Part shown: piece after piece, positions 10,009 to 58,822 of the stretch | Position numbering within the stretch: the first letter of the stretch is position 1 | Layout: each line of letters begins with the position of its first letter | Source of the DNA: Plumapathes pennacea | Taxonomy: Eukaryota > Cnidaria > Anthozoa > Antipatharia > Myriopathidae | DNA length: 64,000 bases | Assembly: GCA_964036295.1 (NCBI GenBank) | Contig: OZ038462.1 | Location: 7,485,267-7,549,266, forward strand | Reading direction: 5' to 3' | Notes under the pieces: generated by a model | Databases searched by the model: none | The model's input: the letters and a program-made list of their open reading frames with translations, nothing else | Told to the model about the DNA's origin: nothing | Program-made: the position numbers and the translations under genes

Positions 10009-13000
10009 CTAAAGAGTCACGCCCTTGTTCTTCAGGCATTTTGTGAAGTCGAGCCCGCACTTCAGTTTATCTTGCCAGCCACTCGCACCTCCGTAGCACG
10101 TTCTGAAGTCAGCATAGCAGTTCCCCTGTTTGAACAGAGAAACCTCCGTCATTTCATTATTCATGTACGAACAACCTTTTTGAAGCCCGCTTGACCAAAC
10201 TCCTATTTTGAATATAGATCTAAATTTACCCGTAGAAGCTCTACCCAAAACGGGGACCTTTTCACACCCCAGCCGTATAAGATACACCTTTGGTATTTTA
10301 AAGGGTCAGTAAAAAGGTTGGACTGAGGGGAAATCGTTTTGGTCTTTTATAGGAGTTCGAAAATTCATGGTTACCTCGGTCAGGATCAAATATCGCTTTC
10401 GAGCTGTCGCGAGTGGTTTTGCTGGAAGTCTTTCAGTTAAACTGGACTAAAAAAAAGCGAGCCATGTTTTACACAGCTATATAAAAGGTTCACTATTTCA
10501 ATCCAGGGTGCATTCAAAGGGTTGAGCGCTTGAGCGGCGCCTCCCATATGTAGTCGTCTGAATTCAGTTATCACAGTTTTCTCTTCCGTGATTTGTTTCA
10601 TATTTAGAAGCTTGGCAAACTGTATTTGCTGATCCAAGTCTGTGTTGAACAAAAACGTAAATAAAGTCGCTTATTAACTTACGATGAACGGTGGGATCGT
10701 GGGAAGGAGGACACTCATGCATTTCTTGTACTCCGAAAAGCACTCCTTCTTGGGCTTGCCACTCTTGACGCAGTCGTAGGCATCAATCTTGCATTGCTGC
10801 AAACAACAAAAGGTTAGGGCATTGTAAACTAAGCTCTCTTTATTCCAACAATATGGTAAGTTTGGGGTTGGATAGTTAATAATTAACAAAGCAACCAGAC
10901 CAAGTTGACAGCTTTCTCGACGTTCGATAGTCATAATGACAGTGTGCCGTTTACAATTGAAAAGTTGTAAATATCGGCATTGAGTCGTTAAAGTCACAAG
11001 TGCGAACGGGGCCTTGATGTCCTTCAACAAAAGGGCGAGAGAGTCAAGTGTATTGAGTAGACTCATAAAAATGAAGAATATCACACGCATAAGAAGACCT
11101 CACTGGATAAGGAAAAGGTAAAAACATTGCGGCGTAAATGAATATGGACTTTTCACTAGCTGGAGGATAGGGAAAACACTGTAAAAAAGCAATTTTGCAG
11201 CATCACTTTCTGTTGGTTCTTCAGTCATGACTCAATTGATGTTTTTATTTATTTTTATTGATGTTTTATTGAATTTTGTCGGTCTGTTTTTACTGGTTTT
11301 ATCGGCGGATCTGGTTTTGCTGGTTTTATCGATCGGGTTTTACTGGTCGTACTGGTTTTACTTACCACGTAAGGGTGACGTGTCGGTTGGCCGTCTTGGT
11401 CGTCAAAAACCAAACTGGAAGAGGGTCCTTTGTTCGCTATACACTTAGCGAACATGGCGTAACACTTGGCTTTTTCTTTAATTCCTTGCCATCCACCTGA
11501 TTGTACACCACTCAAGCAAGCCTTCCGTGCATCGTTACAAAGCGTCTATATAATGAATCACAAGTAACCGTTTTTATAAAAGAAAAGACTCCTATAGTAA
11601 AGTTGATGGTTTTATAACTGAACCAAAGTCCAGGCTGTATGTATAGTACGTCCAGTGCAAAGCAGGAGGAGATGAAGCGAATAAAGTTCTTAGTAACCGC
11701 GCTAATTCTGTGGAGAAACGTTGATTCAAACGAATTTGTTTATAACTTACGACAAAGGGTGGAATAGTTGGAAGAAGAGCAGCTAAGCAGCTCCTGTAAT
11801 CCCTAAGGCACTGCATCTTGTCGTTTCCATTCTTGTAGCAGCTATACAAGGTTACGTGGCATTGCTGTGAAAAAAAAAAATTACAATAGGCAGGTGTTGA
11901 CATGTCATTACCAAACCAGAAACAATTCCAAATGAAACGAAGTTAACCTGGTAGAACATATTATTAACAAATTAGCGAGCTGATAGGTGTTCTTCTGAAT
12001 CATTTTCCTCCAGTCAAACATTGGACAAATAGTTGAAAACAGGGTTTCCAACTCCAACACATACATAGTTACATACACAGTCGACAAATTACTATAGGAA
12101 AAATGACATGGGCGCGCTCAATTCATACTCCAAAGAGGGCGTTTCTTAATCAAACTAAGCCCAACTTATATCGATCGTGGCTAATAATTAGATCTGGCAT
12201 TACTGAAAAACGCAGTAATTACAAAACACCTTAAGTTGATGATACATCGGTCGATTTGCAACGATATGTTGCACTAAAAGTCGTTTCGGTGTAACATCTC
12301 ACGCAAGCCACAACACGCTCTGTTGCTGCAGGAAGAGTGTGTATGCTCACGCAATGCTCCGTGAAACTAGCATACTGTTGTTGTAGGAGCCGTCGAAAAC
12401 TGTGCCAAAGATAGTTTTTGAAGCAATTTCAAAAACTTGCAAGGCGTTGCAGCACTGCAAATATCCGCGAAAAAACATTTGCACTGGGGTGTTACATCAT
12501 TCTGAGTGAATTTTAGCGCAATTCCATGTCATTACAAATCGAGCAGTGTAACACCTTTACCTTTACATCCGCTACGCCACGCTTATCCTCATCAAAAACC
12601 ACAGAGGATCCTTTGTTCTTAAGGCAAATGGCAAAGGTTTTGAAGCACTTAGCTTTGTTCAACAGCCCGCTGCTGCTAGACACACAAACTTTCAGATCGT
12701 TCTTGCACGCAATCTACGGAGAAAAGCAAGAAAGCAATCAACTGTTTCGGAAAGAGCATTTTTGTGAACATGTGTAGTGTGTATGTGCATCCGTGCATAG
12801 GCCCTGTCCACACGTATCTGTTTTCTACGAAAACGCAAACTTTTCTATGCGGATTGGCCTTCCGTCCACACATATCCGGTGAATACGGCCACTAAAACGG
12901 AAACGTTTGAAAACGTTCTCCAGAGTGGAAACTTTTGAATACGATATTTATCCGTATACGTGTGGACGGGTGAACACGCAAACATTTCAAATCGCCCGCC

Positions 13001-15552
13001 AGATTATTTTTTGCGTGGGTGGATAATTTCACTGAAAACGCATTCAATCTTTTGCAAACGGTTCAGTTCATCTGAAAACGATGTCGTGTTGACGCAATAC
13101 TTTTATTCCGTTTTTAGTGAAACGGAAACGTAAACTTTTGAAACCGCATCCGTGTAAACGGGGCCTCAGTCATACATGTTTGTGTTCAATGTGCTTGTGT
13201 GCGTGCGTATGCGTGTACGAACGTGTGATGTGTGATGGCACAGTTGGCACAGGATGAAGGCAAGTATTACGAAATAACCAGAGTCTCGAAAAACAAGCTG
13301 ATTTGGGACTAACCAGACTTAATAAGTAAAAGTGATTCTAATACACACCAGGAATATGACCATTTCACTTTTTCATAAAATAATCAAACCATTTACTTGC
13401 TTTAGCAAAATCCAGAGGGGGAACAGACAAGGGAAGGGACTGACAGGTAAATGTCTTTTTTAACCAATTCAACTAGTACTCACAACAAAGGGAGGAATGG
13501 TGGGGATCAGAACAGCCATGCAGCTCTTATAGTCCTTCATGCACTCCAGTTTGCCTTTCGCTCCGGCCTTAAAGCACTTGTACAGGTCAATCTTGCATTG
13601 CTGAGCAATAAAAGACAGGAAAATAAAAAAATAAATAATACCTATATTAACATGTAGAGATCAGTTTTCGGATGAGTGCCAAAACCAAAATCAAAGTAAG
13701 TAACAGAGCGTCAATCACAGATGCTGTTTCGGCCAAGCAGCGCTTGATTTTACTTTGAATAAGGGACCAATCAGTGTGCGTGAATTCGTGAAAACTCCAC
13801 AAGCACTTGCTTGCTTGCGTGAGTAGATCGCAATCGGGTATTGCTTTTGTGACCAATTAAAACGCGCAGCAAACTCAAAATTAAGCAGTCATACAATTAC
13901 GTTCGATAACGGCTCCATTTCAATGTAACAGACAATGTTATTGATAATAGTAATCAACGTACTTTCCACGCGCGCAGCTTTACAGTTCAATCTCACACTG
14001 CTGGGCCAAGTTTTACGAATTAAATCGAGCAAAGACTAAAATAAAGACGGATCTTGAGACAACGGAAGTTTAAAGTCAAATCAATCAAATCATTGCCATA
14101 TAAGATTTTGGTCTCGGACTTGTTTCTCGCACAAAATGTATCAATTAACTCTGAAAAGAACAGTATAGGACACAAAGTATAGATTGATTGAACATTTTGA
14201 GAAAAGCGAGTTGGATTACTCACAAAGTATGGGTGACGTGTTGGTTCTTCATCATCAAACAACACGCCGGCAGGAGGGCCACCGTTCTTCAGACATTTGG
14301 CAAACTCGATGAAGCACTTGCTTTTACCGAGCAATCCACTGGCCGAACTGATGCAGCTCTTGAGTTGGTCTTTACACTGAATCTGAAAAGACGAGGAACA
14401 GCGGGAATGAAAATGTAGGAAAACCAGTTGACAAAGAAAAAGTGCTACGAGGCGCAAGACAAACAAAAACAAAGAAAGCAAACTAACGAGGCATAGCGAA
14501 AACAAAAACACACGGCACTACAACAAAACAGAATGGACAAAGATAAAGTGCCAGGGGGCGCAAAGAAAGAAAAAAAGAATACAAAGAATAAAAACGACAC
14601 TACAAAGAAATGACCAAAAAAAAGTGATGGAGTGGGAAAGAAAAAAATAAGGAGTAGGTAAAAATGCAGGCAGAGAAAACTGCGACAAACAAGAAGTGGA
14701 AATTACTAAAAAGGAGAATTGCTCACCACAAACGGGGGAATTGTTGGGATGAGGACAGCCATACAGTTCTTATAATTCTTCATACACTCCAGCTTTCCTG
14801 TTCCAGCTTTGACGCAGTCGTACAGGTCGATCTTGCATTGCTAACAAACATTACACAACGTGTTAACGAAATATGTCCGCCACGAAGATAAATGGCGCGA
14901 TTCTCGTTCACTTTTCGCACTTTGCTGTTTTGCTTCTCGCTCATTCCTTACATTTTCCAGTGGTTAGTTTTGTTAATTATCGCCCACTCTTCGTTGTTAG
15001 TCGAGTTGAAACTAGAGTCTTCTATAGCTCCAATTGTTCAAAGCCCGATTAAGCTAATCCAGGATTAACCACTTTTTCCTTCGTCCTGTTAGCGAACAAA
15101 TAGCGGGATTTTGTTCAACTAACAACTAAAAAGCTACTTTTAGCTCAAAACTTATCACGAACGCTCAATTCTAAGCGAAACCTTCCCGTTTTTCAGGCTT
15201 AAAAAGGACAAAACATTTGCCGCTAATCCAGGATTAGACTAATTGCCCTTTGAACAACCGGCCCCAGGGCCCGGTTGTTCAAAGAATGGATAGTGCTATC
15301 CACAGGATAAATCTTTATCCTCTCGACTGAATTAAGCTTAATGGTTAATTTTATCCACTGGATAGCGACTTATCCGGCGAATAGCGCTATACACTCTTTG
15401 AACAACCGGGCCCAGAGGTCTATACTTACCACGTATGGGTGTCGGTCCGGCTCGCCATCCTCGTCATCCTGCAACAGGTAATCGTCCAGAGCCTCAGCTT
15501 GGATGTGCGCCACAAAAGCGGCAAAAACAAACGCCAACAGAAACGTCTTCAT
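10009..15552 (-). CDS. Secreted tandem 4-cysteine module protein, (A-B)x4, nine exons, 396 residues
   Basis: Exons: 15552-15430, 14840-14727, 14382-14224, 13600-13484, 12713-12561, 11864-11751, 11545-11366, 10796-10683, 10125-10009. All junctions are phase 0, all exon lengths are multiples of three, and the total is 1191 bases. Exon 1 is a signal peptide (MKTFLLAFVFAAFVAHIQA) plus an acidic linker ending DDEDGEPDRHPYV. Exons 2, 4, 6 and 8 are A modules of 38-39 residues, typically QCKIDLYDC, a 9-10 residue loop, then CMKNYKNC and PTIPPFV. Exons 3, 5, 7 and 9 are B modules with C-x6-C-x12-C-x6-C (x17 in exon 7); exons 3 and 7 end in acidic TRHPYF/V, while exon 5 ends DEDKRGVADVK instead. The i/i+7 cysteine pairs suggest disulphide-stapled helical hairpins. 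I do not recognise a named family. It is probably secreted and extracellular; no enzyme motif or membrane anchor is seen. Confidence 0.9.
12799..13166. mobile_element. MITE-like element, AGGCCC(T/C)GTCCACAC ends (intronic)
   Basis: aggccctgtccacacgtat at the left pairs with ccgtgtaaacggggcct at the right. The interior is full of gaaaacg / cgttttc strings. It is a diverged relative of the cleaner copy at 46969-47303 and lies in the intron between 13484 and 12713. Confidence 0.65.
13978..14006 (-). pseudogene. Relic A-module exon
   Basis: On the minus strand, gcccag|cagtgtgagattgaactgta reproduces the acceptor and first 20 bases of an A-module exon (16 of 20 bases match the exon starting at 13600). 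It reads QCEIEL and then hits TAA where Tyr is expected; the rest of the module is not recognisable. It lies between a B exon (14224) and the next A exon (13600). Confidence 0.45.
15029..15266. mobile_element. MITE-like element, 'GGTTGTTCAAAG...GGATTA' family
   Basis: attgttcaaagcccgattaagctaatccaggattaa on the left is inverted on the right as ctaatccaggattag ... ctttgaacaacc. It is the same family as 48885-49129 and sits in the first intron of the nine-exon gene. Confidence 0.7.
15267..15413. mobile_element. MITE-like element, GGGCCCGGTTGTTCAAAG ends
   Basis: gggcccggttgttcaaag at the left and its exact inverse ctttgaacaaccgggccc at the right enclose inverted gctatcc / ggatagc blocks. It directly abuts the previous element and shares its outer ends, so the two are related or nested. 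Confidence 0.75.
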
Positions 15553-15616
15553 CTTCAGTTATCTTCTTCGCTTGCTTTCCTAGGAGAGCTAGTGCCTTTT
15601 GTCCTCAGTCGCTCTG

Positions 15617-15624
15617 CTTTTATA
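15617..15624 (-). promoter_or_regulatory. TATA box of the nine-exon gene
   Basis: TATAAAAG on the minus strand, 65 bases upstream of the ATG at 15552. Confidence 0.5.
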
Positions 15625-15639
15625 CGTTTATACTGTTTA

Positions 15640-17681
15640 ATGAGGAGCAAATGTTCCCACAAAACAGATTCTAAAGAGGCTTTGTACACATCCAAGCTGT
15701 TTTATCAATGTTTCTGTGATCAATGCGAACGTTGTTGACCCAGGAGTGTTGACGCAGTTTAGTTTCGTACATTTACTGTGATGTTTTTTTGTTCCCTTTC
15801 TTCGTTGAATTTGTCAGTTCAGTGATAAGAGCCGTGTATCATTCTGTGTGTAATCAGCCAGATACTGCACGAGAAAGCTGTGTAAATGTGGAGGCAAATA
15901 TTGCCCTGTTTCATTGTCCATCGCTAAAATAAACGCAGTTTTAATAGTTTCGCTTGGTGTAGCATCTTCCTGTTTTTTATTTCTTTTTCACGCATTCTCA
16001 AAAGACAACTTGTCCATAAAGTAGCCAGTTGTTTAACATTTGCGAGCAAAAGCGGTGTTACAGTATTACCACTATTAAGACTTCCAGATAGTCTCAGGCA
16101 AAGCAAGCCAAATGATTTTTAATTGACTAAAACATAATAGACCGTTGTTTACAAAAAGCTTGCCCAAACATAAACCGAAGACACACCGCTGAAAAGAGCA
16201 TCGCAAATTTTTTTAAGCCCGCAGCATGTTGCGAAGCGTCGCTATTTTCAACACTGTAGTGTCATGACCGTGACAAAGGCTTATAAAGCAAGACATTTAA
16301 TGTAACTACTGCGTTTAACGTCTAACTATTAAACGCTGCCACTTCTCAAACACTCACACTTCTTCATCCCGCTTGTCAACAGGACTAAATCGTTATATGA
16401 TACTCACCAACAACATGCTAACAACTTAATGTACCTAAAATGTTGCAGTGTTCTCACTATTGTAGTACCACTTTCCACATAAAAGTGTAAAAATAACCAA
16501 AAAAAAAGCATGGTAACTTTCCAGTTTAAATCAGTGAAAAATGTCTTTCAATGGCTGTTTATACAATGAACTCTCTCCAAGGCGGACGCCCTCGGAACTG
16601 GTAGCATTTAGTGTCCGCCTTAGAGAAAATTCATTTCAAGAGAAACAAGTGAAAATCGGCAAGGACCAAATCCACATACTGTCCGATTAGAGAGAGTTGC
16701 GTACACTACTAAACGACGCGGTGGACGAAAACTGCAAACTATGTCTCACAACAAGAAACACGTTTATTTTAAATCTAATTTTAAATTGGTTTTTAAATGT
16801 ATTTATTTCAATTCCCTTGTTTACCTGAGTAAAATAATCATGTTTGCTGAGTAGCCCAAATAACAGCAAAAGAAGCGCAAAACAAGATTTGAGGGTTTTC
16901 GGTTTGCTTTTATTCCTAGTTTAATATGATCATGCCAATAATGAGTACATAATATCCTTAAAAAATAATAGTTTGATAGGAAGTCGACATTTGTCCTCCT
17001 GTTTCTAAGAGAGTTTTGCGACTTGTATTTCGGTGTCACAGTGAAAGACTACTGGCATAAAGATCTTGAACAATCCACCCTTTTACGGCTTTAAATTATA
17101 TTTTTACTCAAAAATTAATATAACCAGGAATCCTGACAAAACTGTTACTATCACTTCAATCCGTAATTATTACTAGCAATCATGAAGTTTCCCACCTTCA
17201 CCAACTTCACTTTGAATGTCAGGTCTTCAGTCGCGTCGCTTCATACCCTATTGTGAAATTTACCTAGGGGGGGTATGTCAATAAAAACCACTAATTTTAC
17301 AAAAGCAAATATCTTTGGTGAATTTTTCTTGAAGACATCTTCATGGCGAGTACAATTAACAAAAAGATGTGCATAATTATAAACTGTTTTAGGGAGTTGC
17401 TGGTCGTATCAGACAGAACTAAAGCAGCATCTAGAGGAAACACGCAACTATTTCGCATGTTTCAAAATCATAAATGCCATGTAATTGCACAGTTGAAGAA
17501 ACAAAGTTGCACGCCTGTTAAAACCAATTCACAATAACCTTTACAATTCAGTACCCACCGCGATATTGTTGCAGCTTTTGCTTTGCTCATGTTAAAACAT
17601 AATAAACAACCCAATTAACTATTGTGTCGGGTTACAGTGTATTTGCTACAAATGTAAACTCTGCAATAAAATACATGGGTT
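15640..17681. other. Divergent intergenic spacer between two cysteine-module genes
   Basis: AT-rich sequence with no splice-bounded exon of either module type. Because the flanking paralogues are transcribed away from each other, shared control elements would lie here. ctctccaaggcggac near 16572 is echoed by gtccgccttagagaa near 16612, a short hairpin. Confidence 0.4.
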
Positions 17682-17689
17682 TATAAAAG
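17682..17689 (+). promoter_or_regulatory. TATA box of the four-exon gene
   Basis: TATAAAAG about 135 bases upstream of the ATG at 17823. Confidence 0.5.
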
Positions 17690-17822
17690 CGCTGTTTCCA
17701 TACTGCTGAACCAATAGAGAATACGCATGCGCTCGTTTGATGCATGTTTTCCGCCACAGCTCTTTTAAGAAAAAGAAGAGTTCCTCGAGATCGCAAACAG
17801 CAAAAGAGGACAGGAATTCGAC

Positions 17823-19866
17823 ATGAAGCCGTTTCTCGCACTTGTTTGCGCTGCTCTGGTGGCAAACGCCCTGAGTAACAAGCTACAGGAAGCTTTACAT
17901 GAAGAGGTTCGCGGTATCGCTGGTTTGAATTAACAAGTTAGAAAAAAAGAAATGTAAATTTGAAAGTGCAAGATAGAGTAAAATTAAATAGAGTGGGAAA
18001 TATAAGGGCAAGATCTGGGGAATAAACCAATACCAGAAAGTGGGATAAAAGCTACGGAGCGATCGACCGAGCAACTAACCCAGTTCTCTGTTTAAAAAGG
18101 ACAGCTCTGATCCAGGCAAGAAAATTTTGGATGCATTGGAGCGTGAGCCTCCGTCCCCTTCGTACCATCCCTTCATAGTAAGTAGAATTGAAATACTAAA
18201 TTTTAAATTAACGAAAACTTATAGAGCGGTTTTTGGATGAATGCCGAAAGTAACCTTGTAGTTGTTTTGGTTTTGCATTTCTTTGCTTTTGGAATGGTTA
18301 ATTAAGGTGCGGGAGAATTCTCGGCTTATCAGGAACAAGAACAAAACCAGTTTCGATCTTCTCGCGCAAGCAAAACAAGTAGTTAACTGGGACAAATTGT
18401 TGCAACTACGCAAGTCTGAAATGTACTTGGCACTTTCTTGTTTCTTAATTTGGCATTGATGGAAGAATTGGCAAAAACTTTTGCATCATGCACACTTCAT
18501 CTCGTTTACCCGTACTAAAATTTCCCATATGAACACATGACCGGGCTCATATGAAGGGGCCCTTAAAGACTTTATAAATGGCTCTTCGGCTACTTTAGTG
18601 TTCAAGAGTTTCCGCCGGCAGTCGCTCCCGGTTGTTATTCCGACCTTGCCTGAGCCTTACCGTAAAATACATCAACTTGACACAGGCTTCTATGTCATTT
18701 TCTTTCATTCAGTTAAAATTGTCCCTTAGGGAGGCTTTAGTCCACACAAACATTTGGCGGTTAACTACACGGATGGTTGTTAGGTATATTAAAAGAAAGT
18801 CCACAAGCGGACAATTAGACTAATACGAATAATGGAGAAGGACATTTGAAATAATATATTAAATGTCTTTTTTCTTTGCAGCAATGCAAGATAGACTTGT
18901 ACAACTGTTTCAAGGCAGGCGAAAAAGGAAATTTTGAGTGTCTGAAAGATTACAAGAACTGCATGTTTGTGCTAATCCCAACCATTCCGCCATTTGTTGT
19001 AAGTTTCATCTCTTTCTGGTCGTGTTCTATTGGAACTAACCGTTTTTCGCTGGTTAGGATTTTTACGTGTTCTTTTGGGAATAAACCATTTTCGGTTGGT
19101 TTAGTTGATCAAATTCAGCAGTCCACTCTGAACCCGGTTGAAACGGTTGAAAACGATGCACCAGGTATACGGTCGTGTTGCAACATTTTCAACCGAAAAC
19201 GGTTCAAAGAGTTCTATTAGTCACCAACCAAAACCGCTTTAGGTTGAAACGGTTGGTCCCAATAGAACATGACCTTTACCTTATTTCATCTTTTCATTTT
19301 TAAGTTACATCTGGTAACCAGTGCCACCGGAATTACAACGACCACCCAACATAAAATAACGATTGCAAACAAAATCAGAATACAAATTCTCCTGACCATA
19401 AAATAAGAAAATGTATGCCGTGATGCAATGAGAATTGATAACTCATTTAGCTTTAATTTAAAATAAGGTATCAAAAGCCAAGTGTTCTATACATTTCTGG
19501 TGAGGATGAAAAGAGAAAATTGAAGTTCATCAATCTTGGAAGTGAAAGGGCTTTCTTGATCTGCATGTTTCCCTGCTTTGAATATACCAAATCATCTCTC
19601 AGAAATCAATAGAAACTTAGAATAAACGCACTTATATTTTCTCTCCCTTTTCTCCCCTCTCTCCGCTAATACATCGTCACATTACATGTTAATTGAGAGA
19701 TTGTCATTAGTTCAGTTTTGGGAAGTCTGATTGTCTTTTTTCACAGAAAAAGTGCGGCGCTGAACACAAGGACTGCATAGCAGGAGCAAGTGGAATAAAG
19801 GAAAGGTTCCAGTGTCACTCCGCCCTTGCCAAATGTCTCAGTAATAGACCCGCCGCAAATTCTTAA
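17823..19866 (+). CDS. Secreted 4-cysteine module protein, single A-B pair, four exons, about 130 residues
   Basis: Exons: 17823-17906, 18100-18177 (donor TTCATA|GTAAGT), 18882-18998 (acceptor tttgcag|CAATGC, donor TTTGTT|GTAAGT), 19747-19866 (acceptor ttcacag|AAAAAG, stop TAA). This gives 132 residues. The first junction is uncertain: GAAGAG|GTTCGC to aaaaag|GACAGC is phase 0 but has a weak donor. CGCG|GTATCG (17913) to atccag|GCAAG (18116) also keeps frame and gives 129 residues. Residues 1-17 are a signal peptide (MKPFLALVCAALVANAL). The linker exon ends PSPSYHPFI, echoing the HPY motif of its paralogues. Exon 3 is an A module (QCKIDLYNCFKAG ... PTIPPFV) and exon 4 is a terminal B module (KCGAEHKDC, x12, CHSALAKC). 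It looks like the minimal family member. Confidence 0.87.
19019..19273. mobile_element. MITE-like inverted-repeat element (intronic)
   Basis: ggtcgtgttctattggaac at the left pairs with gtcccaatagaacatgacc at the right, and the interior holds inverted aaccg / cggtt motifs. It lies in the last intron of the four-exon gene. Confidence 0.7.
19465..19556 (+). repeat. Partial copy of the AACCCTTTCAC dispersed repeat
   Basis: tatcaaaagccaagtgttc, tttctggtgagga and cttggaagtgaaagggct match the 3' half of the better copies. Intronic. Confidence 0.5.
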
Positions 19867-19907
19867 GTTGGGAACGAGTTTTTTTTTGTCAAAATGTCTG
19901 TGCAAGG

Positions 19908-19913
19908 AATAAA
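19908..19913 (+). terminator. Polyadenylation signal of the four-exon gene
   Basis: AATAAA (in ggaataaataag), 42 bases after the stop codon. Confidence 0.6.
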
Positions 19914-19919
19914 TAAGAA

Positions 19920-24129: not shown

Positions 24130-26095
24130 GAAAGTTGGAAGAACACTTGTGATAGTCCCAGTAAGGTTTCCCTAAAGTTTCAAGTCAGAGTTTTTAAATT
24201 TTGGCAAAAAAAGCATGGGCTATAGGCTATAACAATGATTATTGATAACTATCAAATTTGGCCAAAATTGTAAGGCTATGTAAAGCATTATTGCTATATC
24301 TTGTCAACAGCTAATTAAAGAAAAATAAGATGAGAAACATATAGGAAAAGGTCTTGTAATAGGACTCCAAGGAAGGTTTCCTGAAGTTTCAAAAGTTTTT
24401 AAATTTTAGCAAAACAAAAATAAATAAATAAAAAAATAAATAAATAAATAAATAAACCTTAACCTAACCTTGGTCAATCTGATAATAATTAACAATTGAC
24501 AATTATTGCTCTACCTCGTCAACAGCTTAAGAAAAATAAGAGAAATGCAAAGCAAAAAATCTTGTGATAGTCCCAGTCAGGTTTACTAAACGTTTCAAGA
24601 GTTCTTTACTTTTGAGAAGAAAATATGGGCTATAGCCTTGTCACATTTACGCCTAATATGAAGTTTGTAATAGTCTCAGGAAGGTTTCCTAAAAGTTTCA
24701 AGAATTTTTAAATTTTGGCAAAAGAGCAAATTGGGCTATAGCCTTACCATTTTTTGGCCTAATCTGATAATTCCTATATCTTATCAACAGCTAAAAAAAA
24801 AAAGAACAGGAAAACGTCTTGTAATAGTCCCAGGAAGGTTTCCTGAACTTTTTAGGATTTTTTTAACTTTTGACAAAAAAGCATGGGCTTTAGCCTAACC
24901 ATTTTTTTGCCTAATCTGATAATCACTATATCTTGACAAGAGCTAAAGAAAAATAGTAGAAATGCATAGCAAAATGTTTTGTAATAGTCCCAGGAAGGTT
25001 TCCTGAAAGTTCCAGAGTTTTGAAATTTTCGATAGAAAGTATGGGCTATAGGCTTACCATTTTTTGGTAAAATCTGATAGTCGCTATATCTCGTCAAAAG
25101 CTAAAGAAAAATATTAGAAATGCATAGCAAAATGTCTTGTAATAGTCCCCGGATGGTTTCCTGAAAGTTTCAAGAGTTTTCATATTTTGGGAAAAAGCAT
25201 AGGCTATAGCCTTACCATTTTTTGGTGAAATCTGACAATCGGTATATCTCACCAAAAGCTAAAGAAAAATAGGAGAAATGCATTTCAAAATGTCTTGTAA
25301 TAGTCCCAGGAAGGTTTCCTGAAAGTTTCAAGAGTTTTCATATTTTGGCAAAAGCATGGGCTATAGGCTTACTATTTTTCTGGCCAATTCTGATAATTGC
25401 TATATCTTGTAAAAAGTAAAAGAAAAATTGGAGAAATGCATAGCAAAATGTCTTGTAATAGTCCCTGGATGGTTTCCTGAAAGTTTTAAGAATTTTCAAA
25501 TTTTGGCAAAAAAGCATGGGCTATAGCCTTACTATTGTTTTGGCCAAATCTGATAATCGCTATATCTCGTAAAAAGTAAAAGAAAAATAGGAGAAATGCA
25601 TAGCAAAATGTCTTGTAATAGTCCCAGGAAGGTTTCCTAAAAGTTTCAAGAGTTTTCATATTTTGGCAAAAAGTATGGGTTATAGGTTTACTATTTTTTG
25701 GCCAAATCTGATAATCGCTATATCTCGTAAAAAGCTAAAGAAAAATTGGAGAAATGCATAACAAAGAGTTTGTAGTAGTCCCTGGAAGGTTTCCTGAAAG
25801 GTTTAAAAATTTTCAAATTTTGGTAAAAAAGCATGGGTATAGGCTTATCATTTTTTGACCAAATCTGATAATTGCTATATCTTATAAAAAGCTAAAGAAA
25901 AGTAGGAGTAATGCGTAACAAAGAGTTTGTAATAGTCCCTGGAAGGTTTCCTGAATATTTTAATAATTTTCAATTTTTGGCAAAAAAGTTTGGTCTATAG
26001 GCTTACCATTTTTTGGCCCAATCTGATAATCGGTATATGAGGTCAAAAGCTAAAGAAAAATAGGAGAAATGCGTTTCAAATTGTCTTGTAAACAC
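24130..26095 (+). repeat. Tandem array of ~159-base units, about 12 copies
   Basis: Each unit contains cttgtaatagtcccaggaag, gtttcctgaaagtttcaaga, gcatgggctatagccttacc, aatctgataatcgctatatc and taaagaaaaataggagaaat in that order. The nt-ag-tccc block recurs near 24150, 24352, 24571, 24664, 24819, 24977, 25137, 25295, 25453, 25613, 25769 and 25926, giving a regular 156-160 spacing over the last two-thirds and irregular spacing before 24.66 kb. It has no coding potential. It is AT-rich and looks like a small satellite. Confidence 0.85.
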
Positions 26096-26428
26096 ATGTC
26101 AATCTTAACATGGAGAGGTCAATTTTAACATGGAGGGAAAGAAATCACTTGAAAGGGGAATTATTTCCCGGTTTTAACCAATCAGAGACCATAAATTTCA
26201 TGCCGGGCTGACCGAGTAATCATATCCCGATAATAGCCAATCAGGGATAAGCTGTGAGTAATCATACCACGCGCGAGGTATCATTACTTAGTCATGACGC
26301 CATATGTTTGCGAGATATAATCCATATCTTGCTTTGTAACATAGAGAATGCCGTGATGTTTCAAATCACCAAACTGGAAAACGATTGTAACCAATTTCCC
26401 GTGAAGAAAGAAATCTCCCTCTCATCAG

Positions 26429-27618
26429 GTAAATATGTATCCGACCTACCCGAGGCAAGGAAGGGGTATACTAGCAACAGACCTGTTGATAGATGGCCGT
26501 GGGTTTTCAAAGAATTTAAAGCCAATGGTTATGCCACTTTTTTCAGTGAAGACGATAATTTTGCGGCGTTCAATTACCGTCTACATGGCTTTATTGAGCC
26601 TCCCACTCACCATTACAGCCGCTACTTTTGGCACGCTGCTAGAAAGAAAAGGTTTTGCACAGAGAGTAAACCCCAGCATCTCGTTCACTTTGATTACATT
26701 TAGTCATTCTTCCAAGCTTATTCTTCAAAACCCAAGTTTGGCTTTGCATTCTTATTGGAAATTAGTCACAATGCTTTGAATTCGGTCTTCATAGCAGGGA
26801 GCGACTTCCACAGACTTATAGAAAGACTGCACACAAGAAACTTCTTAAACAATACCATGCTGGTCGTAATGAGTGACCACGGCTTTAGATATGGAGAATC
26901 GAGGTTCACATTTCAAGGAAAGTTGGAAGCAAGGCTTCCATTCCTCTCCATTACACTTCCACCGTGGTTTCGCAAAGAATACCCACATCTAGAGAGCAAC
27001 TTAAAACGCAACACAAATCTTCTTGTTACTCCATTTGATCTTCATGCGACGCTGCAACACATTATCTCGTACCCTAAACTCCCCCAATATATGAAGTGGG
27101 GCAGAAGCTTCTTTGACGTCATACCAGGATCATGTGACTGCAGTACAGCTGGTGTACCTGAGCACTACTGCCCATGCGTGCGCTGGCAACCTGTAGATAA
27201 AGACCACTGATCAATCAGGCAGTCGGCTCAAACCGTGGTAACCCATATAAACTCACTGACGTCATCAGATGCCGACGGCGTAAAGTTGTGCGCTCGTTTG
27301 GAACTTGCGGAAGTTACTAGCGGCTATCAGAAAATACCCAATGTTAACATGCTGCAATTTATACGCGCCGCCGATCGACACAGAGTGGAAAAGTTTGCTG
27401 ATGGTCCGATGCCTATTGTGGACTGTATATATCAAGTTCAGCTTTGTACTGTTCCCGGGAATGCGGTGTTTGAAGTATCGGTCACCCACGTCGAAGATAA
27501 ATTTGAAGTGGTTGGCGAACTGAGCAGGATTAATCTTTATGGAGATCAACCGAAGTGCATCATCGACAAGAAACCATTTTTGAGGAAATACTGCTTCTGT
27601 AAAAATTTTCAACAGTGA
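26429..27618 (+). pseudogene. DUF229 / arylsulfatase-like pseudogene, 5'-truncated with two in-frame stops
   Basis: One frame runs from a good acceptor (ctctcatcag|GT) to a TGA at 27616. It carries features I associate with the metazoan DUF229 (PF02995) sulfatase-like family: DLPEARKGY, RWPWVFKEFKANGYATFF, SEDDNFAAFNYRLHGF, the metal-site-like VVMSDHGFRYGESR, LPPWFRKEYP, and a C-terminal GELSRINLYGDQPKC ... LRKYCFC. The frame is broken by TAG at 26701-26703 (after HFDYI) and TGA at 27208-27210 (after PVDKDH), with homologous sequence continuing in the same frame after each. The N-terminal half with the first metal-binding and catalytic residues is missing; the tandem array lies immediately upstream. 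Because it begins at a splice acceptor it looks like a relic of an intron-containing copy rather than a retrocopy. Read-through or assembly error is the alternative. Confidence 0.8.
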
Positions 27619-48001: not shown

Positions 48002-48117
48002 GAGTTCCACAAAGATACCACTAGTGTTTTTGGGACTTCTAACTTGATCTCTGGAGAAAAAAATATCGTCACTAAAATGCAATCCAGTTGAAACAAACAG
48101 ACGAAGAAAATATCTGT

Positions 48118-48240: not shown

Positions 48241-48364
48241 GGAAACAAGTGCGACTATAGATTACTGTAACCGTACTCCTCACAAAATGTTGTTATAATT
48301 ACAAATGCTCTTTAAAATTGATGAATTTTGGAAAAAACAAGAGTATTCTCAACAAATGGGTAAA

Positions 48365-48550: not shown

Positions 48551-48884
48551 TCTATGAATTAATGAGGGTAAAGTATCTTTTTTAGCCATTATAATATTAC
48601 TGTTATTACTGTTATTTTTTGTGTTGTGTTTGTCTCCATGATTTCCATTGTTCCTCTATGAAATTAATGAAGGTACAGGTGTTTTCTTAGCCAGCCACTA
48701 TTTTGAGAAAAATATGCCAGTACTGAAAGGGACAGTTGGCATATTTATAACTCCCTGCTTAACCCTTCCACTGCCAAGCTCAAAATGCATATTATTTCAA
48801 CCATTTGACAAAAACTGTACAGTATGAGTGATGTACAGTAGTGAGACCATCTTAGCAAGCTTTACTACTCCTTACTGTAGAGTA

Positions 48885-49129
48885 CTGGGCCCGGTTTTTC
48901 AAAGCACGATTAGGCTAATCTTGGATTAGGTCTAAACTTTCATGTCATTTATATGCCTGAAAATGCGAAGGTTTCGTCCACAACAACTTCCTTTATGCGT
49001 TTGTAAGCTGGAACAAGCTTTTTAATCCATCTTCGAACAAAACTCTGCAGTTTATTGGCAGCGGGGTCGAGAGAAAGGATTTCGTCAATCCTGGATTAGC
49101 TTAATCGGCTTTCGAAAAACCGGGCCCTG
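48885..49129. mobile_element. MITE-like element, GGGCCCGGTTTTTCAAAGC ends
   Basis: gggcccggtttttcaaagc / gattaggctaatcttggatt at the left is inverted as aatcctggattagcttaatc ... gaaaaaccgggccc at the right. Same family as 15029-15266. Confidence 0.8.
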
Positions 49130-51020: not shown

Positions 51021-51027
51021 TATAAGC
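51021..51027 (+). promoter_or_regulatory. TATA-like box of the fourteen-exon gene
   Basis: TATAAGC, 90 bases upstream of the ATG at 51111. Confidence 0.4.
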
Positions 51028-51110
51028 GAGAGCATCCTTCTATTCTGCACACGTGAAGCAGAACATCACAAAAGTCAGTTGATAGAGCCGACGGATCATA
51101 TCAGAGGAAA

Positions 51111-54100
51111 ATGAATAGAGTTTTGACCATTTGTGTCTTCGTAGCGTTGCTGGGCTGTACCCAAGCTGATGTAAGTCTAACCGTCAATGTAATGTGTTGT
51201 TCTACTCGTCTGGGTTTCACATATCTAATTTGAAAAGAATGTCGAATCTAACTTTCATGGAGGAAACTTTGAAACACATGGCACCTTTAATGAAATAATC
51301 AGTGCAGGCTAACTTTACTTCGAACACTTTAGCTTTAAATAATTACACTTCTCATGTATTTCTTGTTAGAGACAGGGAAGTTATCGTATATGCCTTGTAT
51401 TATTTTAACCCTTTCACATCGTAGTTCAAAATGCAAATTCTCCCAACCTTTTAAGAGGAAATTGTATGAGTGATGTAGTGAGAATTGGTTTAATCAGCTA
51501 TCATCTAAGCAAGTTATCAAAAGTCAAGTTCTCCTTACTGTATGATATTGTGCTGCCGAAACTGAAGGAGAAAATTGAACATGATCACTCTTGGGAGTGA
51601 AACTAGGGTTAATCAGCAAGCACTATAAATTAAAAGATTGGCCAATTGTAATTTACACCAAACCATTTCCCGTATTTTGTTTCAGACCGAAAAGGACGAT
51701 GTATCTCCAACATATCATCCTTACCTTGTAAGTACATAGAGGATATTACACGGCGGCGCGAAGATATGAATTTTATTTTCGAGTGGTAAAAACAATATTT
51801 TACGAACGAGCGCTTTGCGAGTGAGTAAAATATTGTTTATACCACGAGAAAATAAAATCCATATCTTCAAGCCGCCGTAATTTTCTTTTTATTATATTAG
51901 ACACGAGTGTTTTACGAGAAATTGCACAAACAACCGTGCAAAAGCAGGAAATGATGCCAACGATATCCTCACTAGTGAGGATATGAAAAATACGCCACTC
52001 TGGTCCCGGATGTAGTTTCGTACGGATTTTACGCACGGTATATTTTCCAGTAAAACACTCGTGTCTATATAATAAAATGTATTATTTTACTTGTCTTAAG
52101 GCATAAAATGCTCAAATTGTATTAGAATTGATCCAATTTGGTAGAGAGCAGTCGCTGATTTCAGTACAACTAAAATGCACAGTACTGATTGTATTTGATA
52201 ACTGGTTTGAGGTACTGACCGCTGTTACACCCCCGCCAGCAATGCAAGGTTGACATGTACAATTGCGTGAAGGCTGGGAAAGCCAAACTGGAGTGTCTGA
52301 AGGACTACACAAACTGTATGTTAACAATAGTGCCCACACTGCCCCCAATTGTGGTAAGTACAAATTGCAGAATAGCGATATTTCACACGTAGGGGGGATG
52401 CATTTTTGTACGGTAATTCTTTTGGCTACCTTCTCTGTACATTCGATGCATTTTGGTTAAACGGCTTCATTTTAATAGCAGAAAGCAATAAAAGAACTTA
52501 GAGAGCTCTGCATTAGAATTATAAGTCTAAGTTCTGCATGCAATAAAAGTACAAAAACAAGAACAATACCATCAATTCATGTATTGTCCTGATGATGCCA
52601 AAGCAGCTAAGACTGGTGAACATGTTGCAATGCGCTTGACTTGGACTTAGTTTTGCCAAAAATAAATCCTTCATGGAGTTTACCAAGAACAGAGTGGAGT
52701 TGGACTTCGTCTTTTACGAGTGACTACCTTGCACAAACAAAAACCTATATCCTTATAGTGATTTACGAACTCGTTACTTAATACATTGAAATGTTGCATC
52801 CTTTTTCATTGACTGAGCAAAACGCCCGATACGAAATGTCCAATAAAGAATAATAATGCGTAGGATTATTACTCTAATGATCGAGAATGGATGTGTCTAA
52901 GGGGTTAGTTCTTACGCCAGCTTTCTAATTTTATCAATGCCTTAATTGCAGGTCGTTTGCACAGACGATTTCAAGAGGTGTTGGAGCAGTTCACCCAGTT
53001 TGTCCGAAAAAATGAGCTGCTTTACAGACTTCAAGAAATGCTTTAAACCTGTGCCCATGCGATACGACCACCCTAAAGCAACCAGGCATCCGTACATTGT
53101 GAGTAAAGAGCCAACAAATTGAGTTATACAATAACCTCTTCACAACCAAGGTTTGTTAAAATGGCTCCTTGCACGGGAACTGGCACGAGCTTCAAATCGA
53201 GGCTCTTCTGGCATTTGAAAAGCTTACTTTGGGAATTTGTGCAAGTAACTCTCCAAGAATAACACGTACATTTTCTTTGTATACGCCTTGGTTGCTTTAG
53301 AGCGACACGAAACTCACATGTTTGCTGCCTGGTGAATTTCGTGCCAGGTTAGCCTCATTTTGAATCCATGGCCGCACCGTGCACTAAGCAAATTCTGTTA
53401 CAAAAAATGTATCTCTCGGGGCATTCTAGTTCGAGTTAATGCCACTAGTTTAAATTATTTTATGCCTATTTTTATTCCAAATTCGCCCAATCACTCAAGA
53501 AAAAAACGCGAGTGATGTAGTGAGAATTGATCAATCAGTTTTCATCTGAGCAAGCTATCAAAAGCCAAGTTCTCCATACTGTATGATGTATCCCTGCTGA
53601 GAGAAAAATATGGACTTGACCACTCTTGGTGGTGAAAGGGTTAAATAATATTCTTCAAACATTCATCGTAAAAAAATGGGGAGCCAAAACATATATAATT
53701 CTGACCGCATTGTTATATCACAGCAATGCAAGATTGACCTGTACGATTGCGTGAAGGCTGGGAAAGCCAAACTGGAGTGTCTGAAGGACTACAAAAACTG
53801 CATGTCAACGATGGTGCCCACAGTACCTCCAATTGTGGTAAGCACATGTATATTGCAGAATAGTGAGATTTAACATGTGAAATTTATTGGTGTACTCTAA
53901 GGGTGGGTTTCTTTAATGGGTCCATGATCCAAAGTATCCAATTTTTGATATGATCCAGTGAATCCGTCCTAAGTGTGGATCACATGGTTTCATTATCCGG
54001 ATTTGGATTTCAGTAAAGAAACAGATAATCTGTTTTTTGATTTGTGATCTGGATTTGGATTGCTAAAAAGAAACACACCCTAATTCTCTTGACCATCTCA

Positions 54101-55759
54101 TTTTTCTATTCGTATCGGGCGGTTTGCAGACCCTTTGCACAGAAGACTTCAAGCTTTGTTGGAGTAAAGCATCCAATCTGTCCGACAAAATGAGATGCTT
54201 TAAGGATTTCAAGGCCTGCTTCAAACCTGTACCCATGATGCAATTCGACGGTTCCACCCCAACCAGACATCCATATGTTGTAAGTAAATCAAACATTCAG
54301 CGAGTGAATTACATTCTTCAATTTCCTTTTTTATACATCCAACCAGATTTCAGTTAAACATCAAAGAACCCAATCAGGCATTTATACTTTGAGAGTAAGA
54401 CCCCATCTACAATAATTCGTGTTCGTTGAGACCGCACATTATTCATGCGTCTTTGCCTTCCGACCACATTAAAACGATGATTAAAAACGGTTCCAAAAGC
54501 GGAGTGTTCTCAATATGAAAACGACGGCTGACTTTTGAAAATGTGTGGACATACTAGCCTAAAACCAAAAATTTTTACATATCCAACATTAGTTCTTCTT
54601 CTCCTAGCAAACTGTATCGGCATTGCAATAATCGCTGATATTTCTGGTTTTAGATATTGCCAGTAAGATATGTATCTTAAATGACATCAGTGTGACTTTA
54701 AACATTAAAAAAAAAAAAAAACTCACATGTTACATCACAGCAATGCAAGATTGACCTGTACGATTGCGTGAAGGCTGGGAAAGCCAAACTAGAGTGTCTG
54801 AAGGACTACAAAAACTGCATGTCAACGATGGTGCCCACAGTACCTCCAATTGTGGTAAGTACAGGTATATCACATAATAGTGAGATTTAACACATGGAAT
54901 TTATTGGTGTACTCTAAGGGTGCGTTTCTTTAATGGGTCCATGATCCAAAGTATCCAATTTTTTGTATGATCCAGTGAATCCGTCCTAAGTGTGGATCAC
55001 ATGGATTCATTATCCGGATTTGGATATCAGTAAAGAAACGGATGATTTGTTTTTGGATTTGTGATCTGGATTTGGATTCCTAAAAAGAAACACACCCTAA
55101 CTCTCTTGACCATCTCATTTTTCTATTCGTATCGGGCGGTTTGCAGACCCTTTGCAAAGAAGACTTAAAGCTTTGTTTGAGTAAAGCATCCAGTCTGTCC
55201 GACAAAATGAGATGCTTTAAGGATTTCAAGGCCTGCTTCAAACCTGTGCCCATGATGCAATTCGACGGTTCCACCCCAACCAGACATCCATATGTTGTAA
55301 GTAAATCAAACATTCAGCGAGTGAATTACATTCTACAATTTCCTTTTTCATACATCCAACCAGATTTCAGTTAAACATCAAAGAACCCAATCAGGCATTT
55401 ATACTTTGAGAGTAAGACCCCATCTACAATAATTCGTGTTCGTTGAGACCGCACATTATTCATGCGTCTTTGCCTTCCACCACACTAAAACGATGACTTA
55501 AAAACGGTTCCAAAAGCGGAGTGTTTTGCATATGAAAACGACGGCTGACTTTTGAAAATGTGTGGACGTACTAGCCTAAAATCACATAATATTCCAAACA
55601 GTCAGTTAATAGATTTTACAACATTTTTTTTTACATATCGAACATTAGTTCTTCATCTCCTAGCAAACTGTATCGGCATTGCAATAACCGTTGATATTTC
55701 TGGTTTTAGATTTTGCCAGTAAGATATGTATCTTAAATGACATCAGTGTGACTTTAAAC

Positions 55760-55796
<37 letters not shown>

Positions 55797-58700
55797 TACA
55801 TGTTACATCACAGCAATGCAAGATTGACCTGTACGATTGTATCAACGCTGGGAAAGCCAAACTAGAGTGTCTGGAGGCTTACAAAAACTGCATGTCAGTG
55901 CTGGTTCCTTCACTGCCCCCTGATTTTAAGGTAAGCAACGTTTGCTTCTAAGACTTGGTTCATCACAGTCGACCAGTTTAGAGCTTGTGAGCAATCGCCG
56001 TTTGTAAGCGTGAGTCTAATATCAGGACTGTATGCCTTCCTTTAGCAATGTCAGGTAGACCTCTATAACTGCATCAAAGCTGGAAAAGCCAAACTAGAAT
56101 GTCTGGAGGCTTATAAAAACTGCATGTCAATGCTGGTCCCTTCACTGCCCCCTAGTTTTAAGGTAAGCAACGTTTGGCTAGACTTAGTTTGTCACAGTCG
56201 ACTATTGTAAGCGTGGGTCTAATATACCAGGACTGCGTGCCTTCCTTTAGAAATGTCAGGTCGACTTTTATGACTGCGTCAAAGCTGGAATTGATGATAA
56301 GGTGGAATGCCTGAAGAAGTACAAGGATTGCATGGCTGTTTTTGTTCCCACTGTGCCCCCAGTCGTGGTAAGCGCTATATCAAGCCATACATAAAGTACC
56401 TGGAACTCTCCTTGATGAGGGCTAGCCCATTTCCGATTCTTTGTTTTCTTGCCAGTTATGGATTAAAATAAAAACATGATCGGTAAACTTTATCTTTACA
56501 GTTTGGCTTAAAATACTCTGTCTCTGTTGAATACAATTTGAAGCTTTCTATGAACCACTACGTGAAGTGAAGTTAATTGGACGGCCACCGTTTTGTCTTC
56601 AATTCAATAATTTGATCAACAAGGTTCGTTATCTAGTTAGGGAGTCACCAGCGAGAGTCGATCTTTCAGCAAACATTTGAACATCGGCAATAAAAATCTA
56701 TTTGAGTTTAAGTTTTACGCCCAAGCTCAAAATTCAGATTCTTCTAACCTTTTGAGAAGAAAATGTATCAGTAATATGGTGAGAACTGATAGTTTAATCA
56801 GCTTTCATCTAAGCAAGGTATCAAAAGCCAATTTCTTCATACTGTACATGATATTTCTGGTGAGAGATTCAAAGAAAAAATTGAATTTGATCATTCTTGA
56901 GGATGAAATGGTCAAAAAATGAAAGTACGATGACTTCTATCTCTTGCTTAGACCAATTGCGCAGGAATCCTCAAAGAATGCGTTGGCAGTGCGCCTGATT
57001 TATCTGGAAAATGGAACTGCTTAAAAGAATTCAAGGAATGTCTGTCAGGCCCCAAAGCAACTCCGTACCCTGTAGCTGATGCAAGACTCGATGACGAGGA
57101 AAAAGTAAGAGAGAGAGCAATGATCTTGTTCAAATTACGATACCAAGACTAATAGCATGCATACAATAATTTCTGCATTCTGATTGGCTGAGCGCACGTC
57201 AATTTATCCCAAACAGTGCAAAAATGTGAAATTAACAGAGGAGAAATGTGAAATTAAGTGTGCAGAAATTTGAAATTAAAAATTGCCGTTGACTTTAAAT
57301 TGAGTTTGTACTCTCTTATTTCGAATTATTCCTTAGCCAATTTTTACGTCCAATTCAGACAAGGCTATCTGTCTGAAGGATTACAATTCCTGTCAGTCCG
57401 TGTTCTATGGTTTTACATTAGCTACAAATCTTACCGAACCAACTCCCAAGTACAAATTAGACAATGTTTGATTGGTCACTTTAGGGTTGCACGGCCGAAC
57501 TGACCACTTGCATCTTGGACTCCAACAAGAGCTTTACGCAGTGCATGTCGGACTACACTAAATGTCTGCAGATCGTCCTTCCTACCCTCCCACCCTTCCC
57601 CCCAGAGGCGGTAAGTTCTGCAGCACAGCGTTTCATTATATGTCAGCATTATTATATCGATTAGTGTCATTCAATTTGAACGTGTTTCAGTGTCTGTCTG
57701 AAACGTTTTTAGTGTCTGCCTGTATGTGACTTAGGTCCTGTTGATATGGAGAAAGGTTGTCCCGGGTACCAAAGGCACCTTCTTCCCCGAGTCACCCTGG
57801 GCGCGCCAACTATTAGTACATTTCTTTATAATAACATTGAACTATTTACACAAAGTGGCCCCTCCCGAAGGCCACCCAGTCCCGATAGCTGTGGGTTCCA
57901 AATTACGTATGAAAAGTTGAGCACGCCCAGGGTAACTTGGAGAGGAGAGCGTCTCAGTTCCCCAAGACAACTCTTTCTCGGTTTAAACAGGGCGTTAGTG
58001 TACTGTGTAGTCCTAAGCAAGTGTATGTCCGTGTGCATTTTTCACGGTCTGTCTTCGTTTGATATCATATCTTAGTCTACTGTATATGCTCTCCTATTCT
58101 CAGAAACATCGTTCCTATGTTCTCGGAAAAAAATATTCTCTTGTTCTCAGAAACATTGTTCTCTTATTCTAAGTAACATCGTTCTCTTGTTGTCAGTAAC
58201 ACTGTTCTCTTATTCTCAAAAACGTTGTTCTCTTGTTTTCAAAAACGTTCTCTTGTTCTCAGTAACATTGTTCTCTTGTTCTCAGTAACGCTGTTCTCTT
58301 GTTATTAGAAACGTTTTCTTTTTCTCAGACACAATGTTCTCTTCTTCTCAGAAACATTGTTCTCTTATTCTCAGAAACATTGTTCTCTTATTCTCAGTAA
58401 CATTGTTCTGTTGTTCTCAGTAACATTGTTCTGTTGTTCTCAGAAACATTGTTTTCTTGTTCTCAGTAACACTGTTCTCTTGTTATTAGAAACGTTGTTC
58501 TCTTGTTATCAGAAAAATGATTATCTTGCTCTCAGAAACATTGTTCTGTTGTTCTCAGAAACATTGTTTTCTTGTTCTCAGTAACACTGTTCTCTTGTTA
58601 TTAGAAACGTTGTTCTCTTGTTATCAGAAAAATGATTATCTTGCTCTCAGAAACATTGTTCTGTTGTTCTCAGAAACATTGTTCTCTTATTCTTAGAAAC

Positions 58701-58822
58701 ATTGTAAAACCGAGCTGGACACGTGCGTGGCCGCCGCCCCTGGTATGCTGTCGAAGTTCAAGTGTTACACGGCCGCTGCACAGTGTGTAGTCGACGCCAC
58801 ACCTGCACCAACATCCAAGTAA
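51111..58822 (+). CDS. Secreted tandem 4-cysteine module protein, twelve modules, fourteen exons, 548 residues
   Basis: Exons: 51111-51170, 51686-51727, 52240-52353, 52952-53098, 53724-53837, 54130-54279, 54741-54854, 55147-55296, 55814-55930, 56046-56162, 56251-56367, 56952-57104, 57485-57610, 58697-58822 (TAA). All junctions are phase 0 and the total is 1647 bases. Exon 1 is a signal peptide (MNRVLTICVFVALLGCTQA), and exon 2 is a short linker ending TYHPYL. The module order is A B A B A B A A A B A B. A modules read QCKIDLYDCVKAGKAKLEC ... YKNC plus PTVPPIV. B modules keep C-x6-C-x12-C-x6-C, and exons 4, 6 and 8 end TRHPYI/V. Exon 12 ends with an acidic DDEEK stretch and lacks HPY. Exon 13 is a divergent A (CTAELTTC ... 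CMSDYTKC, LPTLPPF) and exon 14 a terminal B. Exons 5-6 and 7-8 are a recent tandem duplication. No catalytic motif or anchor is visible, so an extracellular role is inferred. Confidence 0.92.
51408..51612 (+). repeat. Best copy of the AACCCTTTCAC dispersed repeat (intronic)
   Basis: taaccctttcac at the left and gtgaaactagggtta at the right form imperfect terminal inverted repeats. In between are aaaatgcaaattctcccaac, tgagtgatgtagtgagaatt and agttctccttactgtatgat. Confidence 0.7.
51746..51880. repeat. Fold-back (hairpin) element (intronic)
   Basis: ttacacggcggcgcgaagat atgaattttattttcgagtgg is inverted on the right as ccacgagaaaataaaatcca tatcttcaagccgccgtaa. Inner arms taaaatattgttt pair as well. 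Confidence 0.8.
51889..52076. mobile_element. MITE-like element, GACACGAGTGTTTTAC ends (intronic)
   Basis: ttattatattagacacgagt gttttac at the left and gtaaaacactcgtgtctata taataa at the right, only a few bases after the previous hairpin. The two may be one compound element. Confidence 0.75.
53496..53645 (+). repeat. Copy of the AACCCTTTCAC dispersed repeat (intronic)
   Basis: gagtgatgtagtgagaattg, ctatcaaaagccaagttctc catactgtatgatg and ggtgaaagggttaa. Confidence 0.65.
53900..54081. mobile_element. MITE-like element, AGGGTG(G/C)GTTTCTTT ends (intronic, first copy)
   Basis: agggtgggtttcttt at the left pairs with aaagaaacacaccct at the right; tccggatttggatt and aatccg-type strings lie inside. 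Confidence 0.7.
54917..55098. mobile_element. Same MITE-like element, duplicated with the exon pair
   Basis: The copy lies at +1017 relative to 53900, with agggtgcgtttcttt and aaagaaacacaccct ends. It was inserted before the exon-pair duplication. Confidence 0.7.
56700..56905 (+). repeat. Copy of the AACCCTTTCAC dispersed repeat (intronic)
   Basis: caagctcaaaattcagattc, cttttgagaagaaaatgtat and ggtatcaaaagccaatttct in the expected order. Confidence 0.6.
58090..58696 (+). repeat. ~24-26-base minisatellite abutting the acceptor of the last module exon
   Basis: About two dozen units of gttctcttgttctcagaaac attg or close variants fill the last 600 bases of intron 13. The final unit, gttctcttattcttagaaac attg, is itself the functional acceptor and first codons of exon 14 (tcttag|AAACATTG). 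Confidence 0.85.

Follow-up and report, generated by a model that had tools for sequence, protein, structure and literature searches.

The window analyzed here, a stretch of 64,000 nucleotides from Plumapathes pennacea (contig OZ038462.1, positions 7,485,267 to 7,549,266), contains three genes whose predicted products carry, behind a signal-peptide-like leader, tandem modules of four cysteines each; a fourth such gene lies elsewhere in the genome. The gain is a constrained protein family with a clear rule of one exon for one module. The family has no existing name, and tandem disulfide-stapled helical hairpins as such are a kind already known. We favor, at about even confidence, the reading that this is a small gene family for intact, multivalent proteins of the secreted cysteine-rich repeat protein (SCREP) kind, made of stapled helical hairpins. 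Each module of 38 to 60 residues would fold alone into two antiparallel helices with two disulfides as staples. The two module types, A and B, would mostly alternate, with a proline-rich spacer, P[TS]xPP, after A and a linker after B that is often acidic and in half of cases ends in TRHPY plus one residue, and the chain would presumably stay intact after secretion.

Gene models and module signatures

The earlier note had described three genes and 22 modules at this locus, and all of them are present in a six-frame scan and in the gene models: gene 1 has 8 modules, gene 2 has 2, and gene 3 has 12, divided into 12 of type A and 10 of type B. The proposal of one module per exon with phase-0 introns is likewise shown by the splice borders in the window models, where each module exon lies between AG and GT. 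GT and AG ends are found in 23/23 predicted introns of genes 1 to 3, all exon lengths in these genes are multiples of three, and their chains are free of internal stops. The models of genes 1, 2, 3, and 4 (the last being the gene outside the window) have 8, 3, 12, and 8 introns, respectively, and neighboring modules are always separated by one.

Gene 1, which had been given without a strand, lies on the minus strand (15552 to 10009) and has nine exons, a leader followed by four A-B pairs, encoding a chain of 396 residues. Its first exon (15430..15552), which is paired with an exon of gene 4, has a signal-peptide-like start and an acidic end reading DRHPYV. The module exons follow as A1 (14727..14840), the first sequence in the AlphaFold A model; B1 (14224..14382), with a TRHPYF tail and modeled by AlphaFold as a helical hairpin; A2 (13484..13600); B2 (12561..12713); A3 (11751..11864); B3 (11366..11545), with a TRHPYV tail; A4 (10683..10796); and B4 with the stop (10009..10125). 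Gene 2 (plus strand, 17823-19866) has its leader spread over two exons, a signal-peptide-like one (17823..17906) with an uncertain 3′-end and a second (18100..18177) that ends in YHPFI and has an uncertain 5′-end, followed by a single A-B pair (A at 18882..18998, B with the stop at 19747..19866). The intron between the leader exons is ambiguous, as a phase-0 splice requires a weak donor and, judged by eye, phase-1 alternatives are possible.

Gene 3 (plus strand, 51111-58822) encodes 534 residues, beginning with a 20-residue leader on a signal-peptide-like exon (51111..51170). Its modules are A1 (52240..52353), B1 (52952..53098, TRHPYI tail), A2 (53724..53837), B2 (54130..54279, TRHPYV tail), A3 (54741..54854), B3 (55147..55296), A4 (55814..55930), A5 (56046..56162), A6 (56251..56367), B4 (56952..57104), a divergent A7 (57485..57610), and B5 with the stop (58697..58822). 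This order, A-B-A-B-A-B-A-A-A-B-A-B, means that the array is not purely one of A-B pairs. A hydrophobic core is present in the leader of all four genes, and on this leader hydrophobicity the products of genes 1 to 4 are predicted to be secreted; inspection of the chain sequences found no hydrophobic C-terminal anchor. A promoter scan and an Rfam scan gave no useful result.

Two introns hold repeats. In gene 3, a 23-bp minisatellite of 27 copies (58090-58705) covers the end of the last intron and nine bases of the last exon, and YAGAAACATTGT occurs in it nine times. The last of these occurrences is the modeled 3′ splice site, so that the intron is lined with sequences that nearly repeat its own acceptor. 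In gene 1, the last intron contains a 75-bp dispersed repeat (10289-10363) with 38 further scored places in the genome at 84-86% identity.

Every one of the 22 modules has four cysteines. The A signature of the earlier note holds throughout: C-x6-C-x9/10-C-x6-C is found in 12/12 A modules (x9 in eight, x10 in four), each followed by P-[TS]-[ILV]-P-P, in which three linker prolines are invariant. The B signature holds for the most part, with C-x6-C-x12-C-x6-C in 9/10 modules and a loop of x17 in the tenth (11366-11545), and the TRHPY tail that had been called frequent is on 5/10. A single comparison of the A and B profiles with hhalign aligned 30 columns of the hairpin core at a probability of 94% and an E value of 1.1e-7, and this alignment points to one ancestral module; judged by their sequences, A and B are homologous.

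Constraint, paralogs, and array growth

The family extends beyond this locus. A search of the genome (290 Mb in 24 contigs), with the chains of gene 1 and gene 3 as queries and counts that are lower bounds, placed a fourth gene and a fragment elsewhere. Gene 4 (C9:1681223-1685387), found by both queries, has eight modules and repeats the nine exons of gene 1 in identical order, all in phase 0 with GT/AG ends. The fragment is a broken copy of gene 2 (C1:8660288-8661252), in which the A exon is cut on its 5′-side and the B exon is open. Besides the window, gene 4, and this fragment, the search of the animal's own genome returned one overlapping stretch on C10 (E 0.8-1.1), which is full of stops, and, within counts that are lower bounds, no other member. 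About 1.4 kb past the broken copy lies a frame with a GT4-conflict glycosyltransferase domain (L040, 7366-8616; E 2.1e-69).

The comparison of genes 1 and 4 carries the claim of constraint. The 388 codons that align give a dS of 0.739, a dN of 0.152, and thus a point estimate of 0.206 for dN/dS, and 32/32 aligned cysteines are kept. Point estimates for single exons are low in all nine, ranging from 0.046 in the last B exon (B4 of gene 1, by codon alignment) to 0.335. The overall ratio together with the kept cysteines implies that the models encode a constrained protein, and the pattern between the two genes is, as far as codons can tell, that of a translated and constrained product. It is barely credible that these frames are pseudogenes, or repeats arisen by chance, from which no protein is made. 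One member, the gene 2 copy on C1, is indeed a fragment, but the low ratio, the full set of cysteines, and the retention of every splice phase between genes 1 and 4 all speak against pseudogenes, and a six-frame reading of the window yields 21 matches to C-x6-C-x8..13-C-x6-C (the x17 module brings the total to 22), whereas 100 second-order Markov simulations of it averaged 0.43 and never exceeded 3.

The modules also bear on the age of the array. Each of the modules B1 to B4 of gene 4 has its best score with the gene 1 module of the same number (4/4), and the A modules do so in 2/4 cases. The position-wise B matches suggest that the eight-module array probably predates the split of genes 1 and 4, and the A modules may possibly have been homogenized after it. 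Trees of the modules have few supported forks (starred, 1/12 for A and 2/12 for B), one of their groupings being that of the third A modules of genes 1 and 4 (82/91).

Growth of the arrays by A-B pairs, as the earlier note had it, accounts for part of what is seen. Gene 3 contains two tandem A-intron-B-intron units (53711..55777, plus strand), with starts at 53711 and 54728 and thus 1017 bp apart, that agree at 95.9% over a stretch of 855 bp that takes in introns and at 96.7% over a further 150 bp. The copies of the A exon (A2 and A3) differ at 1/38 codons, a synonymous change, and those of the B exon (B2 and B3) differ at 5/50, of which one is synonymous. This unit, about 96% identical, shows an array in the course of growing. 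Three consecutive A exons in the same gene, starting at 55814, 56046, and 56251, do not fit growth by pairs and indicate that single-exon duplication also occurs. Arrays lengthen by duplication of phase-0 exons, whether of a whole A-B unit or of one A exon, and the resulting natural series of 2, 8, 8, and 12 modules offers a means of studying how valency affects binding or mechanics.

Predicted fold and fate of the chain

AlphaFold models, one for each type and built from the window modules only (12 A and 10 B), predict a helical hairpin for B and, less certainly, for A, so that the fold the earlier note had proposed for every module fares better for one type than for the other. The B model has helices at residues 2-13 and 17-32, with block pLDDT values of 80, 83, and 86 over residues 1-30 (mean 71, pTM 0.41), and the A model has helices at 6-11 and 13-30 (mean pLDDT 76, pTM 0.46). 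Cysteines seven residues apart are separated by two turns and lie on the same face of a helix, and an antiparallel hairpin would therefore pair C1 with C4 and C2 with C3. We infer these two disulfides for each module; the α-hairpinin EcAMP1, with cysteines at positions 7, 11, 25, and 29, has the same pairing in the account excerpted from PMC7191063. Among the 35 Foldseek rows for the B model, six are leader hairpins of plant vicilins (7uv2, 7uv4, 7lvf, two of 9q1l, and 6o3q) at nonsignificant E values of 4.0-7.0, three of them from Jug r 2 at 1.3-1.5 Å over 33 columns; the anemone peptide acrorhagin I was not among the rows for A or B.

No strong match to a characterized domain, on which the earlier note would have given up its unnamed family, was found: no Pfam family reaches its cut-off in the chains of genes 1 to 4. 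The highest Pfam score in three of the four chains belongs to CVNH (PF08881), an all-beta lectin domain, with 23.6 bits for gene 4, 22.5 for gene 3, and 18.3 for gene 1 against a cut-off of 24.5 (it is not listed for gene 2). We reject CVNH, though it is not disproved, as the scores lie below the cut-off and the matches span some 27-34 residues where the model has 102 positions, and we set it aside because an all-beta fold conflicts with the helical prediction. Single modules gave isolated weak Pfam matches, the best being SHNi-TPR (E 0.0089, 1/12 A) and APC_r (E 0.088, 1/10 B), and NCBIfam returned for the 12 A modules four weak families, each in a single module (best E 0.028). Sequence searches of the PDB returned PsbQ (E 0.54) and granulysin (E 0.6), neither significant. 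The A profile confirmed 0 of 39 pattern matches in viral contigs and 0 of 29 in bacterial and archaeal genomes. Searches of an open-access library yielded no description of such a module array or of its sequence.

Several of these results weigh against the reading that we favor. The CVNH score is the one most at odds with it. The A model is of moderate quality only, Foldseek returned zero rows with it, and none of the 35 rows for the B model is significant, 29/35 being other proteins of no evident relation. The dN/dS values are point estimates without a significance test. Finally, three linkers do contain a dibasic pair, each confined to one gene (gene 1, KR at 215; gene 2, KK at 94; gene 3, KK at 361), and cleavage of other kinds may take place as well.

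The last point touches on the main rival, a polyprotein precursor whose linkers would be cut to release many single hairpin peptides for venom, antimicrobial, or signaling use. We think this somewhat unlikely, but it remains a real rival, since the layout is exactly that of the α-hairpinin precursors of plants: according to the extracts of PMC7191063, those precursors are cut, and an uncut macadamia cassette is far less active. Anemone PHAB toxins are likewise encoded as repeats on a single transcript (PMC6627431, in extract), acrorhagin I is a crab-toxic peptide with a helical hairpin (PMC11722136 and PMC11896702, in extract), and the module cores carry a mildly basic charge of +1 to +4 in genes 1, 2, and 4, those of gene 3 being closer to neutral (-1 to +3). 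Against cutting, no dibasic site is common to the module borders in the chains of genes 1 to 4, and gene 4 lacks the KR that gene 1 has at 215. The linker prolines are invariant in 12/12 A modules, the estimates of dN/dS between genes 1 and 4 are low in every exon, and in gene 3 no propeptide separates the likely signal peptide from the first A module. An intact secreted chain thus remains the reading that we prefer. What the family does we can only infer, and that it acts outside the cell is a guess.

That the products build a structural matrix, be it cuticle, skeleton, glue, or nematocyst capsule, in which disulfides cross-link the chains, is distinctly unlikely. This reading would accord with three open frames rich in Gly and aromatic residues or in Gly and Cys that lie 2.4, 4.1, and 7.0 kb beyond the gene 1 stop, two of which, by eye, have a signal-peptide-like stretch near the start (the third has none), and tandem Cys-rich proteins are known from coral skeleton (PMC4890752, in extract). 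However, the four cysteines of each module are an even number and can pair within it, and the Gly-rich neighbors may be neither co-expressed nor related. In the 9.9 kb past the stop of gene 4, no frame of at least 60 residues exceeds 20% in Gly, Trp, and Tyr, and the six frames there that reach 120 residues show no similarity by eye.

The surroundings of the genes hold other features. A 411-codon frame on the minus strand (1775-3007) is rich in Trp, Gly, and His and has repeated YKSxIPK-like and KRWWPGYMGGWG units; it had no Pfam match at an E value of 0.01, and no second copy was found in the genome. A plus-strand frame at 4907-5947 combines a signal-peptide-like stretch with several dibasic sites and a 14-residue tail motif, and its matches elsewhere in the genome are confined to the repeat part (residues 232-335). 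The small plus-strand frame at 7071-7619, with a signal-peptide-like stretch and a tail rich in Gly and aromatic residues, gave no second genomic copy and no Pfam family over its cut-off. Two adjoining plus-strand frames at 26251-27207 match DUF229 (E 8e-15 and 1.1e-47), just behind a 158-bp tandem repeat of nine copies (24665-26091). The actinoporin-like cytolysin family (PF06369) is found at 18 places in the genome (on C2, C5, and C6) and in 0/14 control genomes, which would suggest a cnidarian; GFP and Toxin_4 searches gave no match here and none in their controls either.

Relation to known disulfide-stapled hairpins

The earlier note had judged the cysteine spacing to be unlike known folds, which is right for the two that it named, CHCH with C-x9-C and α-hairpinin with C-x3-C, and misses acrorhagin I and the tandem precursors of plant α-hairpinins. 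The CHCH domain has two helices joined by two disulfides, a C-x9-C spacing, and a role in mitochondrial import; the modules here have instead C-x6-C in each helix and a signal-peptide-like leader. The name SCREP denotes secreted proteins with tandem Cys-rich domains (PMC6262176 and PMC11896702, in extract), and it fits here as a descriptive class, in that each chain has at least two tandem Cys-rich domains and is predicted to be secreted. The cnidarian cases given in the same extracts have two to four domains (ShK, SCRiP, Kunitz, and one four-domain Urticina precursor), whereas the proteins here have 2-12 predicted helical hairpins. Coral galaxins and a Cys-rich skeletal protein are also secreted and built of tandem Cys-rich repeats, those of galaxins with repeated Cys-Cys pairs (PMC4890752, as excerpted), of which the four chains here have none.

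Plant α-hairpinin precursors resemble these proteins in layout, with a signal peptide followed by 2-4 or 5-12 four-cysteine hairpins with linkers (extracts of PMC7191063), which is to say a multimodular chain of four-cysteine helix-loop-helix modules behind a leader that here is signal-peptide-like. Their spacing is C-x3-C, compared with C-x6-C here. Their genes in wheat and barnyard grass are described in the same extracts as intronless, and that of macadamia as having one intron outside the hairpin part; the wheat and barnyard grass genes thus have no introns between modules, whereas here each module has its own phase-0 exon. Convergence would be a far likelier source of the likeness than descent.

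Acrorhagin I (U-AITX-Aeq5a) is the closest cnidarian parallel considered here, a secreted, crab-toxic helical hairpin of anemones stapled by four disulfides (PMC11722136 and PMC11896702, in extract), with C-x6-C in each half as in the hairpin predicted here. In the alignment with PDB entry 6ux5, its spacing reads C15-x6-C22-x14-C37-x6-C44. It has eight cysteines in one 50-residue domain by the extract of PMC11722136, compared with four per module here, and the large superfamily of acrorhagin-like helical hairpin peptides in octocorals is intronless in the extract of PMC11896702, whereas a phase-0 intron separates the modules here. The A profile matched acrorhagin I in the PDB at an E value of 0.44 as two half-matches in swapped order, and thus homology with it is not established; the B profile matched nothing at an E value of 10. 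We speculate, with considerable doubt, that the family represents an undescribed animal superfamily of tandem stapled hairpins, a convergent counterpart of the plant α-hairpinin polyproteins in which a secreted ligand or weapon would owe its valency to duplication exon by exon, and that it may share an origin with acrorhagin-like toxins. Were it linked to those peptides, it would bear on the conversion between single-domain toxins and multidomain secreted proteins. By spacing, cysteine count, and gene structure, the family is a member neither of the α-hairpinins nor of the acrorhagins; it would work like a string of hairpins of these types.

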